Assembly: GCA_021372295.1 (NCBI GenBank)
Contig: JAJFUS010000034.1
Span: 1-64,000, forward strand
Direction: 5' to 3'
Source: a bacterium
GTDB taxonomy: Bacteria; Armatimonadota; UBA5829
DNA length: 64,000 bases
The translations under genes were made by a program, and so were the position numbers. Shown here piece by piece: positions 1,375-55,008 of this stretch. The notes under the pieces are model-generated. The model searched no databases and had not been told where the DNA came from. It saw only the letters and a program-made list of their open reading frames with translations. Positions within the stretch are counted from its first letter, which is position 1. Each line of letters starts with the position of its first letter.

Positions 1375-1460
1375 TTTGGAGCCCCCTGTGGGGGTTGCCA
1401 ACCTGATTCGATTGGAACCTGTCCGGTTGCGCACAATAGTCCGTCGCCGACAATATACAG
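1375..1460 (+). repeat. Leader element, family 2, copy A (upstream of panD)
   Basis: TTTGGAGCCCCC, a GGGGGTTGCC arm, TTCG, GGTTGC, AATAGT and GTCG occur in this order. The same words recur at 37784 and, more weakly, at 22749. It lies between the panD promoter and start, so it would be in the 5' UTR. It is either a structured RNA or a dispersed repeat. Confidence 0.6.
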
Positions 1461-4012: not shown

Positions 4013-4042
4013 GGATTTTCTTGGGGCTCTGCCCTCAAACAC
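4013..4042. repeat. Fragment of the family-1 palindromic element
   Basis: TTTTCTTGGGGCTCTGCCCT matches the left end of the elements at 9251 and 35921. The similarity stops after about 30 bases, just before the glyS ribosome site. Confidence 0.5.
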
Positions 4043-4059
4043 ATTAAGGAGATTGCAAA

Positions 4060-9249: not shown

Positions 9250-9250
9250 T

Positions 9251-9419
9251 TTCTTGAGGCTCCGCCCCAAACCCCACCAGAGATTCTGCAAGGAAACCAA
9301 GTTTCCTTGACCTTCTGACTCAGAGTTGAACGATCCCTTAAGGGATCGTTCAACTCTGGAACGGGGATCCAGGGGCCACTCGGCTCCTGGCGGAGTTAAG
9401 GGGCAGAGCCCCTTATGGG
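9251..9419. repeat. Palindromic intergenic element (family 1, copy 2), complete
   Basis: The left arm has CTCCGCCCCAAACCCC and AAGGAAACC-AA-GTTTCCTT. The centre is a perfect 38-base palindrome (9321-9358, middle CCCTTAAGGG). The right arm has GGGGCCACTCGGCTCCTGGC and GGGGCAGAGCCCC. Read in reverse complement, the right arm resembles the left, so the whole unit is one long imperfect inverted repeat. It contains no gene. Confidence 0.85.
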
Positions 9420-21880: not shown

Positions 21881-22779
21881 TAGACATTCGTTATCACATA
21901 TACAGCATCGCAGCAGTGTTTTTCGCGCTGGCGGTGGGCATCGTTATCGGGACATCTTTCGCTCGGAGTTCCCCCGTGGGCGGGGCGGAACGACGGACAA
22001 TAATCCGTTACGAGAACTCCATGCGCAGCCTTAAGCGCGAGATCGAGAAAACCGCCGAAGACAACGCCAGGAAAGCGCAAATAGCGAAAAACTGTGAAGA
22101 ATTCTGCCGCGCGGCGCTTCCATCAATCGCAAAGAACAGGCTGCTTGGGCGAAATGTGGCGATTGTGCAGACCGGCGATTATGACGATCTCTCGGGTAAC
22201 GTAAAGCTCGTGTTGGAGCTTGCGGGAGCGCACGTAAACAGCGTTACAGATATCAATCGCCTGTTTCCGTGGGACGATGACACTAAGATTGCGGCAGCGC
22301 TTACCCATTGCGGAATCGCGCCTCCGTCCGACCCCAAAGAGGCCAGGAACAAGCTGTTTTCGGTCTTTGCTGGGATGCTCTATGCCGGACAGTATCAACT
22401 TCTGGCATCCAGGTTTGAGGAATCGAAAGTCGCCAAGTTCACCGGAGAATACGGCAGGGTAAACAGGCTCATCGTGATTGTTGGAGGAACGGAATCGGAA
22501 CCGACATTCAGCCCGCAGCATATCGACTCGCAGCTTATATCGCAGCTCGATGCTCCAGACGTGACTATCGTAGGATGCGAGGGCTCGCAGGCGGTCGGCT
22601 CGTATATATCAGCCTGGCACAAAACCGGCATTGCAACAGTGGACAATGTGGATTCGGCTATCGGACAGATGGCTCTGATATGCGCACTGAACGGCGAGAA
22701 TGCGCAATTTGGAACAAAGGAAAACGCCGACCGGCTTATACCGCACACTCTGGAACCCCCAATGGGGGTTGCTCGCTAA
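21877..22779 (+). CDS. steB: SteB / MctB-family envelope protein (annotated as copper transporter)
   Basis: 300 residues. MIDIRYHIYSIAAVFFALAVG, here the first 21 residues abbreviated at its end, is the family's typical N-terminal membrane anchor, followed by a GTSFAR turn, a coiled coil (about 45-75) and an outer domain. The mycobacterial homologue was named MctB for copper efflux; the corynebacterial one, SteB, is the partner of SteA. ATG 21877 overlaps the steA stop (ATGA). The last codons fall inside the CCCCC/GGGGG stem of the family-2 element copy C, so the 3' end of the gene and the element are the same DNA. Confidence 0.87.
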   Translation: MIDIRYHIYSIAAVFFALAVGIVIGTSFARSSPVGGAERRTIIRYENSMRSLKREIEKTAEDNARKAQIAKNCEEFCRAALPSIAKNRLLGRNVAIVQTGDYDDLSGNVKLVLELAGAHVNSVTDINRLFPWDDDTKIAAALTHCGIAPPSDPKEARNKLFSVFAGMLYAGQYQLLASRFEESKVAKFTGEYGRVNRLIVIVGGTESEPTFSPQHIDSQLISQLDAPDVTIVGCEGSQAVGSYISAWHKTGIATVDNVDSAIGQMALICALNGENAQFGTKENADRLIPHTLEPPMGVAR

Positions 22780-22832
22780 TTTCAATTGAAAAGTCTGTCA
22801 CTATAGATAAAAACTGTGGTAAGCGCTGACAG
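22749..22832 (+). repeat. Leader element, family 2, copy C (end of steB, upstream of the GT2 gene)
   Basis: TCTGGAACCCCC, AAT, GGGGGTTGC, then ATTGAAAA and TGTC follow the same order as copies A and B. Similarity falls off in the second half. The first 31 bases code for the end of SteB. Confidence 0.45.
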
Positions 22833-22882
22833 GTCTGGGCTTTTAGCTCTCTACTCTCAGCTCTCAGCTATTCTCTGAGGAA

Positions 22883-23560
22883 ATGGATTTGGCCGACGTA
22901 TCCGTCTTAATTCCGGCATACAACGAAGAAGACCTGATCGGGCAGACCGTGCAGGCCGCGCTCGGCATGCCGGGAATTCGCGAGGTTGTGGTGATCGACG
23001 ACGGCTCTGAAGACGAGACGCCGTTCGTCGCTCATGAGGCAGGCGCTCGGGTGATTCAGATGGATCAGAACCTCGGCAAGGGCGCAGCTATGAACAGAGG
23101 CGTTGCAGAGACGGATTCGGACATTCTTCTGGTAATAGACGCCGATTTGGGCACATGCGCCGTTGAGACTTACAGGCTCCTAGAACCGATTTTGGCCGAT
23201 CAGGCGGATATGTCGATAGCTGTGATGAAAGCGCCGCCGGGTCACAAGGGCGGGTTCGGAATTGTGTTGAAACTCGCAAGGTGGGGAATCAGGAAATACG
23301 GCGGCACGCTTGTGACCGCGCCCATATCGGGCCAGAGAGCGATCAGGCGAAAGCTCATCGAAGACATCGGCGGGTTCGAGAAGGGTTTCGGCGTCGAGAC
23401 TGCGCTTACAATCGACGCTCTCAGAAAGGGCTACCGGATTGTGGAAGTGCCGTTGCCTTTGAATCATAGAGTGTCCGGACGAAACTTAAGAGGGTTCCTG
23501 CACAGGGGGCATCAGTTTATAGACATTGCGCGGGCGTTGTGGCGGCGAAGACAATTATAG
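22883..23560 (+). CDS. Family 2 glycosyltransferase (DPM1/UgtP-like)
   Basis: 225 residues of a GT-A fold. VSVLIPAYNEEDLIGQTVQA at the start, VVVIDDGSEDETP and the VIDADLGT motif mark the nucleotide-sugar and metal site; GQRAIRRK and GFGVETALTIDA match the acceptor side of polyprenol-phosphate-type enzymes. No membrane segment, so it works at the inner face of the membrane. In Clostridia the SteA-SteB pair is also followed by GT2 and GT4 genes, which supports a shared role in envelope polymer synthesis. TGAGGA precedes the ATG. Confidence 0.9.
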   Translation: MDLADVSVLIPAYNEEDLIGQTVQAALGMPGIREVVVIDDGSEDETPFVAHEAGARVIQMDQNLGKGAAMNRGVAETDSDILLVIDADLGTCAVETYRLLEPILADQADMSIAVMKAPPGHKGGFGIVLKLARWGIRKYGGTLVTAPISGQRAIRRKLIEDIGGFEKGFGVETALTIDALRKGYRIVEVPLPLNHRVSGRNLRGFLHRGHQFIDIARALWRRRQL

Positions 23561-33737: not shown

Positions 33738-33770
33738 GATCCGATGGGTCTCCCTGCAATGTTTGTCATT

Positions 33771-33817
33771 GTAGGAGTCATCAGCCCTGTCGGGCGGTTC
33801 AAGGCGGACCCCATCGC
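33771..33817 (-). promoter_or_regulatory. Fluoride riboswitch (crcB motif)
   Basis: On the minus strand the RNA begins GGCGATGGGGTCCGCC, continues through AACCGCCCGACAGGGC and ends CTGATGACTCCTAC. The GGCGATGG start, the GCC...GGC stem and the CTGATGACTCCTAC end are the hallmark of the crcB-motif aptamer. It lies between the promoter and crcB, 33 bases before the start codon. Since no clear T-run follows, control may be at translation start. Confidence 0.93.
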
Positions 33818-33825
33818 CACATATA

Positions 33826-33853
33826 TTATACCATACAGCCTGCGGTGGTTAAC
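33826..33853 (-). promoter_or_regulatory. Promoter of the crcB leader
   Basis: On the minus strand TGGTATAAT is an extended -10 directly upstream of the riboswitch. TTAACC, 16 bases before it, could be a -35. The GTTAAC at 33848-33853 is shared with the divergent promoter. Confidence 0.55.
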
Positions 33854-35920: not shown

Positions 35921-36104
35921 TTTTCTTGGGGCGTTGCCCCAAACCCAACCAGAGACTCTGTCTCTGGACTCTGCAAGGAAACCAGGTTTCCTTGACCTTC
36001 TGACCCGAACTTAATTATCCCCTTAAGAGGACAATTAAGTTCGATACGGAGGTCCAAGGGCCACTCGGCTCCTGGCAGATTCCAAGGGCAGAGCCCTTGG
36101 CAAA
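35921..36104. repeat. Palindromic intergenic element (family 1, copy 3), complete
   Basis: Left arm: CTTGGGGCGTTGCCCCAAAC, AGAGACTCTGTCTCTGGACT and AAGGAAACC-AG-GTTTCCTT. Centre: CGAACTTAATT (36006) and AATTAAGTTCG (36033) around CCCCTTAAGAGG. Right arm: AGGGCCACTCGGCTCCTGGC and AAGGGCAGAGCCCTT. It ends directly before the rpoN -35 box. The stretch 35921-36282 has no other gene. Confidence 0.85.
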
Positions 36105-37766: not shown

Positions 37767-37783
37767 CGACTTACGTGTAGTTT

Positions 37784-37868
37784 TTTGGAGCCCCCAGTAA
37801 GGGTTGCCCACTAGCTTCGTTTGAAAACCCGGTTTGGTTGCAAGAAATAGTTTGTCGTCAGTACACAC
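37784..37868 (+). repeat. Leader element, family 2, copy B (upstream of the STN-domain gene)
   Basis: TTTGGAGCCCCC, GGGTTGCC, TTCG, TTGAAAACC, GGTTTGGTTGC, AATAGT and GTCG. The outer bases GTGTA (37775-37779) and TACAC could close a stem. It lies wholly within the mRNA leader. Confidence 0.6.
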
Positions 37869-37891
37869 CTGGTTTTTTGGAGGAAATTTAG

Positions 37892-38680
37892 ATGAGAACC
37901 GCTTTGTCTACCCTCGTTATCCTGCTATTCGTCACTTCGATCGCCGCCGCTGGCGGAAACGTTAATCTAAACGCAAACGATATACCTATAAAAGAGGCCG
38001 TCGCACAGATTTCACAGCAGACCGGCGCTTTAATTGTGCTGGATCCCAAAGCCACAGGCAGCGTCACGGTGAATCTCAGCGAAGCCGACCTGCCAAACGT
38101 TCTGGACGTCATCACGAAGCTCAACAAGCTCACTTGGAAAAAACTGCAGTTCGCCAAGCAGAGCGATTCCACTATCAAGCTCGACCAATTGAAATCGGCC
38201 ATTTTGGCGCTGAGTTCAATTCCTGTTGCTGGATTGTCGGTTGAAGACCCTGAGAGCAAGACCACCGCCGTCTTCGCAAAAGACCTTCTCCAGTCGCCCG
38301 AGACATCCAACCTGCATTTGCCGGACGGATACACATGGACAACTATCTATGTCATACTTGTCCCGGAAGTCGAAACCGCGGACAAGGACAAAAAGTCGAC
38401 TGCCGCGGAGCTTGCGGAAAATGAAGCGAAAAACACATTTGAACTGGCGGATATGACACCTGAAGAAAGACAGCAGGTATATGCCAGCATGATGAATGCG
38501 TACATGAATCTCACTACCGAGCAGAGACAGGCGATGATGGCCGATCAAATGCGTGCGGTATTCAACTCGGATTACAGCCAGGATTATATGCATGACATGT
38601 TTAGCGTAATGCAAACTCTTCGCAGTTCGGGCGAGATGCCCGACATGGGACCAGGCAGAGGCGGCCCTGACAAAGACTGA
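37892..38680 (+). CDS. Exported STN-domain (secretin-like short domain) protein
   Basis: 262 residues. A signal peptide (LSTLVILLFVTSIAAAGG) leads to an STN-like fold, residues about 25-95 (NLNANDIPIKEAVAQISQQ, GSVTVNLSEADLPNVLDVI), the domain found at the N terminus of secretins and TonB-dependent receptors. The rest is charged, rich in Gln, Met and Asp, and ends PGRGGPDKD. No secretin barrel is present, so it is a periplasmic protein on its own, possibly binding a partner. GGAGG stands 9 bases before the ATG. pepA follows 12 bases after the stop and likely shares the transcript. Confidence 0.78.
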   Translation: MRTALSTLVILLFVTSIAAAGGNVNLNANDIPIKEAVAQISQQTGALIVLDPKATGSVTVNLSEADLPNVLDVITKLNKLTWKKLQFAKQSDSTIKLDQLKSAILALSSIPVAGLSVEDPESKTTAVFAKDLLQSPETSNLHLPDGYTWTTIYVILVPEVETADKDKKSTAAELAENEAKNTFELADMTPEERQQVYASMMNAYMNLTTEQRQAMMADQMRAVFNSDYSQDYMHDMFSVMQTLRSSGEMPDMGPGRGGPDKD

Positions 38681-46023: not shown

Positions 46024-46048
46024 GGCTGAACGCTTCGTCAAAAATCGC

Positions 46049-46076
46049 TAAACCCAATGCCCCGGACTGTCGATAC
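46049..46076 (+). promoter_or_regulatory. Sigma-28 (FliA/SigD) type promoter of the flgF operon
   Basis: TAAA, 16 bases, GTCGATAC; consensus TAAA-N15/16-GCCGATAA. The block CGCTAAACCC...TGTCGATACGT is repeated at 54810-54841 before the flagellin gene. It is 18 bases from the flgF start. Confidence 0.8.
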
Positions 46077-46093
46077 GTCCATTGGAGACGAAA

Positions 46094-54648: not shown

Positions 54649-54811
54649 CCTGTACAAAGCGCGACGACCTCTCCAAGCTCAAAAAATCGTAGTCCAAACC
54701 CATACCAAACATGGCCCATCATTATATAAAGAGCCCCTATATAGTACAAAGAGCGCCAAAATCGTCCGCAAACGCCCCCAAATTTTTTTCTAAAATTTCT
54801 TAAAAAACCGC

Positions 54812-54839
54812 TAAACCCATTCTCCTCACCTGTCGATAC
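54812..54839 (+). promoter_or_regulatory. Sigma-28 type promoter of flagellin gene 1
   Basis: TAAA, 16 bases, GTCGATAC, the same layout as at 46049 with matching flanks (GCTAAACCC and TGTCGATACGT). It gives a 5' UTR of about 160 bases with stem candidates GGATC/GATCC (54847) and ATCCG/CGGAT (54882), and an AGGAGGAG ribosome site at 54991. Confidence 0.82.
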
Positions 54840-55008
54840 GTGACATGGATCGAAATTGATCCTCACGACTCGTGACCCGATATCCGCGATCCACGGATGG
54901 AGCGGTCGGCATGAGTTTGTGCCATACAATCCGAACTGACGCCTGCAAATCACAGGTGCGCCGAGCGGCGGGGCAGGCAACAATAGTTCAAGGAGGAGAA
55001 CAAATAAA

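Follow-up and report, generated by a model that had tools for sequence, protein, structure and literature searches.

Three copies of a short repeat in the window, the 64,000-nt stretch of DNA analysed here, belong to a family that is very probably a small, non-autonomous, hairpin-ended and strand-specific mobile element, which at genes replaces the Shine-Dalgarno sequence. The resemblance among the three copies is far above chance. As reported in a first-pass annotation of the same DNA, all three have the same orientation and precede panD, a GT2 glycosyltransferase gene and an STN-domain gene. The annotation had proposed a leader RNA and, as the alternative, a mobile repeat; of the two readings, the latter is better supported. 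The genome from which the window derives (2.65 Mb, 56 contigs) is referred to as G000, and its sister species as G001-G004; G002, G003 and G004 belong to the same genus as G000.

Copies were scored with two covariance models, R1, built from four G000 copies (two of them from the window), and R2, built from 21 copies over the full element length. Copy 1 (1382-1471, + strand; R2 85.5 bits) comprises a left hairpin (P1), a linker, the P2/P3 hairpin and the right end TTTCTTAAGGG, and is a precise insertion when compared with G001-G004. It is preceded by TTTGGAG (1375-1381, +), which is the native Shine-Dalgarno sequence of panD, as shown by the empty sites in G001-G004, and forms the base of P1. 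The right end acts as the replacement Shine-Dalgarno sequence of panD, which encodes aspartate decarboxylase and has a TTG start codon (1479-1826, +; Pfam PF02261, 9e-44). Copy 3 (37791-37882, +; R2 89 bits) is likewise a precise insertion, located behind the native Shine-Dalgarno sequence TTTTTTGGAG (37781-37790, +; empty sites in G004 and G003) of an STN/secretin-N0-like gene (37892-38680, +; weak PF07660/PF21305 matches, below the cut-off), and its right end GGTTTTTTGGAG is the replacement.

Copies 1 and 3 are complete, whereas only the left half of copy 2 (22756-22881, +; R1 34.1 bits, R2 32.8 bits) is preserved: P1 and the linker are intact, and the right half is decayed and mixed with CTCTCAGCTCTCAGC-type filler. 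Copy 2 is included in neither model and still scores E 6e-6 with R1. Its left flank TGGAA (22751-22755, +) is the former TGGAG Shine-Dalgarno sequence of the GT2 gene (22883-23560, +; Pfam PF00535, 5e-25), as seen from empty sites in G001 and G004, and sits inside the end of a SteB/MctB-like gene. According to the translation, copy 2 encodes a new C-terminus of the SteB/MctB-like protein, PPMGVAR, which replaces the old one. Filler of the CTCTCAGCTCTCAGC type replaces the right half in two decayed copies (window 22820-22880 and L154:2099-2212). The word order that the first-pass annotation had described as common to all three copies holds for copies 1 and 3; copy 2, placed there at 22749, lacks AATAGT and GTCG, its right half being decayed. 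The extent given to the copies was too short, as they reach the Shine-Dalgarno sequence before the gene (1382-1471 and 37791-37882), and the leading TTTGGAG, which had been counted in the feature, belongs to the host site and not to the element.

Empty sites were read at the orthologous panD, GT2, STN and rpmJ loci of the sister species. At panD, G001-G004 have the arrangement ..TATACTATTA..(TTGGAG or near)..N6-7..TTGAAACT. For instance, G003 reads ..GAAATTGGAG-CTATGAA-TTG and G004 reads ..AAAATTGGAG-CAAGGAAA-TTG, G001 and G002 being similar, while the filled site of G000 reads ..AAATTTGGAG-(element)-CATTAAG-TTG. At GT2, the empty sites are ..CAGACTTTGGAGATAAAGTAGTTGG.. in G001 and ..AGCCTGGAGAAGAAGTAATTGG.. 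in G004, and TGGAG lies in the sisters 9-12 nt upstream of the start codon, within the end of the SteB/MctB-like gene. At STN, ..TTTTGGAG is followed by GAGTTGAGATG in G004 (i.e., TTTTGGAG-GAGTTGAG-ATG) and ..ATTGGAG by GAGTTGAAATG in G003, and G000 reads TTTTTTGGAG-(element..TTTTTTGGAG)-GAAATTTAG-ATG. At rpmJ, the sisters have TTCTGAG-AGGTCAA(T)TAG-ATG and G000 has TTCTGAG-(element..CAGGAG)-AGGTTAAGTAG-ATG. A further insert of G000, upstream of rplX, is found right after the rplN stop codon, where the spacers are too different for an exact empty site. The element is absent from the panD, GT2, STN, rplX and rpmJ orthologues of all four sister species. The empty sites therefore place the element directly behind the native Shine-Dalgarno sequence, with its right end giving the new one, whose spacing to the start codon is nearly that of the native sequence.

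The element is about 90-107 nt long (the shortest form about 60 nt), starts with CCCC(C)AGT-GGGG and has TTTCTTAGGAG as its 3' end. P1 has the sequence GGAG CCCCC-AGT-GGGGG UUGCC, in which the GGAG of the target is drawn into the base of the hairpin, and is followed by the conserved linker CACUUGUUUCGAUU. P2, the 5' strand of which is GAAACC or GAAAACGUCU and the 3' strand GGUUUC or AGACGUUUUC, encloses P3 (UGGUUGCGAA..UUUGUCGUCAA), and UUAGGAG lies directly 3' of the second P2 strand. Base pairing of P1, P2 and P3 is seen in all or most copies, and the stems include conserved G.U pairs. A copy at L152 is devoid of P3 and part of P1 and keeps the linker, P2 and the Shine-Dalgarno sequence; a copy at L148 has lost P1.

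Since RNAalifold alone gave an unstable picture of the family, P1-P3 were assigned manually, and pair counts and strand swaps served to test them. Pair counting yielded a covariation score of 0.190, compared with 0.147 +/- 0.011 in shuffled and at most 0.126 in slid controls. The strand-swap test depends less on the alignment; in it, each 5' strand of 14 de-duplicated copies was folded against the 3' strand of its own copy and against those of the others. For P2, pairing is better within a copy than between copies (P = 0.0002), and covariation beyond the first stem, which the first-pass annotation had set as a check, is thus present in P2. The result is borderline for P3 (P = 0.054) and uninformative for P1, which hardly varies (P = 0.083); six control segment pairs were negative (P > 0.5). 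The change of the first stem on both sides, said to be visible among the three window copies, does not occur there: CCCCC is constant, the stem of copy 3 is broken (AAGGG), and copy 2 features a one-sided change from G.U to A-U. Two-sided changes of the first stem appear only when the wider family is considered. A functional RNA would likewise be expected to conserve sequence and stems, and this counts against the mobile reading. The RNA structure need not regulate anything.

The element could be taken for a genus-specific cis-regulatory leader, either a riboswitch or a protein-binding RNA, which controls genes via P2 beside the Shine-Dalgarno sequence. With riboswitches and ribosomal-protein leaders it shares a structured 5'-UTR RNA next to the Shine-Dalgarno sequence and a covarying stem, P2. 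Copies 1 and 3 lie between promoter and gene, as had been annotated, and hence in the 5' UTR of panD and STN; these promoters are just upstream of the copies, and their -10 boxes are conserved in the sisters. Moreover, 11 of the roughly 16 copies of G000 end a few bases upstream of a start codon on the same strand, in the Shine-Dalgarno sequence. This is above the background of 19-41% of intergenic GAG/GGAG sites of the window in such a position, a range that rests on approximate gene calls biased towards starts preceded by a Shine-Dalgarno sequence. The enrichment is moderate and can result from target choice plus retention, so that targeting at the RNA level is not required.

The remaining evidence makes a regulatory leader improbable. 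No copy in G002, and only one to three in G004, are closely upstream of a gene; the others lie between opposite-strand genes, 3' of genes or immediately after tRNA-Arg(CCT). The fixed position upstream of genes that had been expected of a leader is not seen in G002-G004, where many copies do not precede any gene. The Shine-Dalgarno sequence is outside P2 and has no conserved sequestering partner. The target genes have nothing in common (panD, GT2, STN, rplX, rpmJ and cysE, as well as a BON gene, a phosphorylase gene, a phage structural gene and kdpC), the position of the element is not conserved between species, and the sister orthologues lack it at all five loci examined. Unrelated target genes and absence in the sisters argue against a riboswitch or regulon. 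The location of copies in 5' UTRs is explained by the Shine-Dalgarno sequence being the target of the element. The element matches no Rfam family at either gathering or relaxed thresholds, in line with the earlier failure to recognise a named riboswitch. The top sub-threshold Rfam matches, psbNH, sR23 and Fibrobacter-1, are chance matches by score.

The junctions show that insertion is confined to one strand and takes place immediately 3' of GAG in a target resembling TTNNGAG. Aligned at the junction, left flanks carry T at positions -7/-6 and G-A-G at -3..-1; the head at the left junction is GGAG, CGAG or TGAG. A single motif recurs in the target (TTNNGAG) and at the right end (TTAGGAG). At the left, the fourth base counted from the junction is the target's own; at the right, it is nearly always G, and any duplication is therefore at most 3 nt. 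The trinucleotide is identical on both sides in 15 of 21 copies and different in the other 6; from these sequences, a right GAG encoded by the element and a 3-nt target duplication appear equally likely and are indistinguishable. Alignment of the ends of the copies revealed no terminal inverted repeats. Some copies have a left flank other than GAG, such as TAG, AAG, GAA or, behind a tRNA, CCA.

Shine-Dalgarno sequences are one of two target classes. The other is the GAG within an unrelated dispersed repeat, TCATTCCGAG..GAGGAATCTGC, uninterrupted exact matches to which number 15 in G004, 33 in G003 and 13 in G002 (L157-L186); G000 has one and G001 none. In about half of the G004 copies, TCATTCCGAG or a close variant is directly followed by CCCC, and sequence like ..CGACGAGGAATCTGC comes after TTAGGAG. 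Since these copies interrupt TCATTCCGAG..GAGGAATCTGC at that point, the dispersed repeat has been split exactly after GAG several times.

A mobile element that takes an RNA route, namely a minimal intron-like RNA reverse-spliced behind the Shine-Dalgarno sequence of an mRNA and later copied into DNA, would account for the precise insertion, the removal of which restores the native sequence, for the sense-strand preference at the Shine-Dalgarno sequences of G000 and for the conserved G.U pairs, a feature typical of RNA. However, at about 100 nt the element is far smaller than known self-splicing introns, many copies are at TCATTCCGAG repeats and antisense positions, and no strong copy is found within coding sequence, where splicing would tolerate one. 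We regard this route as very improbable.

A pattern search of G000 added two good copies, one preceding rplX and the other a phage structural gene. The R1 search raised the number to about ten (E < 1e-4), and the R2 search to approximately 16, decayed copies included. Covariance searches with R1 and R2 found 12-13 copies in G004, 4-5 in G002 and 3-4 in G003. A covariance-model search had been proposed in the first-pass annotation; with G000 copies alone in R1, the best unseen copy in other species has E 1e-15. In G001 the R2 search returned no convincing copy, and 14 further genomes of the order yielded none. Within the coverage of these searches, the element is confined to one genus. A scan of the public GTDB set with a conserved-core pattern gave two matches in unrelated taxa, which are attributed to chance because R2 supports neither; of 12 pattern matches in IMG/VR viral contigs, none is convincing by R2 (best E 0.12).

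Near-identical sub-families within G004 (C47a/C59a/C47b and C53/C59b) indicate recent spread of the element. Two copies in G000 (L155, contig C55) lie among phage-like genes, upstream of a structural protein gene and of a deoxyribosyltransferase-like gene, and a prophage may therefore have carried the element. A copy without GAG on the left adjoins tRNA-Arg(CCT) in both G004 (L075:2399-2570) and G002 (L078:2114-2280). This is the sole insertion found to be common to two species, and possibly the oldest copy. It could also be the source if recombination, without a dedicated transposase, had spread the family as a piece of some larger dispersed repeat or of a stable RNA linked to a tRNA. Such an origin is hardly probable, since ends and target motif stay constant at unrelated loci, which is characteristic of an enzyme and not of random recombination.

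That the element is mobile we hold with high confidence. How it moves is a more tentative matter. The element inserts in a strand-specific way 3' of a short motif, ends on the right in a related motif, has subterminal hairpins and lacks inverted termini and long duplications. These are hallmarks of IS200/IS605 and REP elements (PMC6006769, PMC2817692) and suggest an HUH transposase that recognises hairpins, works on single strands and acts in trans, a proposal to which we give slightly less than even chances. Such an enzyme would cut and join a single strand at TTNNGAG on the left, in the target, and at TTAGGAG on the right, in the element. Upon insertion at a Shine-Dalgarno sequence, P1 would lock the old GGAG by pairing, and the GGAG at the end of the element, unpaired behind P2, would serve the ribosome at the same distance from the start codon. 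Translation would survive, and the copy could be kept as a new 5' UTR.

Searches among Y1 and TnpB genes revealed no transposase linked to the element. G000 has no Y1 transposase gene (PF01797), and models of the left and right halves found neither full nor half copies within 1.5 kb of 19 Y1 loci of G001-G005. TnpB (PF07282) is missing from G000, G003 and G004, and a single gene is present, in G002 only.

REP/BIME sequences, which are associated with TnpA-REP (RAYT) transposases, are short palindromes dispersed in genomes, and their hairpins have a GT[AG]G head at the foot (PMC6006769, PMC2817692). The element resembles them in being non-autonomous, single-strand and orientation-specific, and in having a purine-rich 5' head, GGAG/CGAG, at the hairpin foot. 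In contrast to REPs, the GAG of this head belongs to the target and GT[AG]G is absent; the element is about 100 nt long, its second half is also structured and its 3' end is fixed; its copies number about 4-16 and not hundreds; and no RAYT is flanked by it, G000 having no Y1 gene and the Y1 genes of its relatives having no copy beside them.

IS200/IS605 sequences and their non-autonomous derivatives, the PATEs, lack inverted termini and long target duplications, carry subterminal hairpins, insert 3' of a short fixed motif and repeat that motif at the right end (PMC6006769, PMC2817692). When tested for these features, the element proved to have no terminal inverted repeats or large target duplication, a fixed TTNNGAG target on its 5' side with the related right end TTAGGAG, and subterminal hairpins, P1 on the left and P2/P3 on the right. 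It differs in that neither tnpA nor tnpB occurs in or near any copy, and no full-length relative with tnpA/tnpB sharing its ends was found at the Y1 loci of G001-G005 or, for TnpB, in G000, G003 and G004. No clear guide tetranucleotide is seen 5' of the hairpins; because P1 starts at the junction, guide bases of the IS200/IS605 type are not recognisable. The target motifs of IS200/IS605 elements, TTAC or TTGAT, are unlike TTNNGAG. ERIC, RUP, BOX and Correia elements are, as is the element described here, short, structured, intergenic and transcribed with neighbouring genes, but several of them have inverted termini and TA or similar duplications. To our knowledge, no repeat of this kind targets and replaces the Shine-Dalgarno sequence, and a literature search, with most subscription journals outside its coverage, returned nothing relevant on small elements that do so. 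The element works like a REP- or PATE-type element and is not a known RNA family; it is not filed as a REP or PATE member because the GT[AG]G head (REP) and a linked transposase (both) were not found.

Other features of the window include a fluoride riboswitch (33765-33827, - strand), which scores 62.6 bits in Rfam, well over the threshold. Another dispersed repeat, TTGGGGCTCTGCCCCAAACCCCGCCAAAGGCTTTGCCTCTGGACT...GACC, is found at 281-361, 4017-4055, 9250-9411 and 35922-36096; its copies are 67-85% alike, contain the internal palindrome GGGGCTCTGCCCC and are unrelated to the element. A 45-nt repeat (CTAAACCCAATGCCCCGGACTGTCGATACGT and similar) precedes two genes (46034-46078 and 54797-54841) and, judged by its sequence, looks like a sigma-28-type promoter.

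The family indicates that a single insertion can create a structured leader RNA, the element aiming at the ribosome-binding signal, burying it in a hairpin and bringing a replacement, and that mobile insertion is a ready source of structured 5' UTRs. It also cautions against reading every structured motif with covariation in front of a gene as a riboswitch. Filled and empty loci provide natural before/after pairs in which the effect of insertion on translation can be measured. Should the family instead represent a new mobile class that naturally targets Shine-Dalgarno sequences, has a working Shine-Dalgarno sequence as its 3' end and moves by an unknown enzyme or RNA route, which we consider rather unlikely, that class would exchange the 5' UTR of a gene without breaking its translation.
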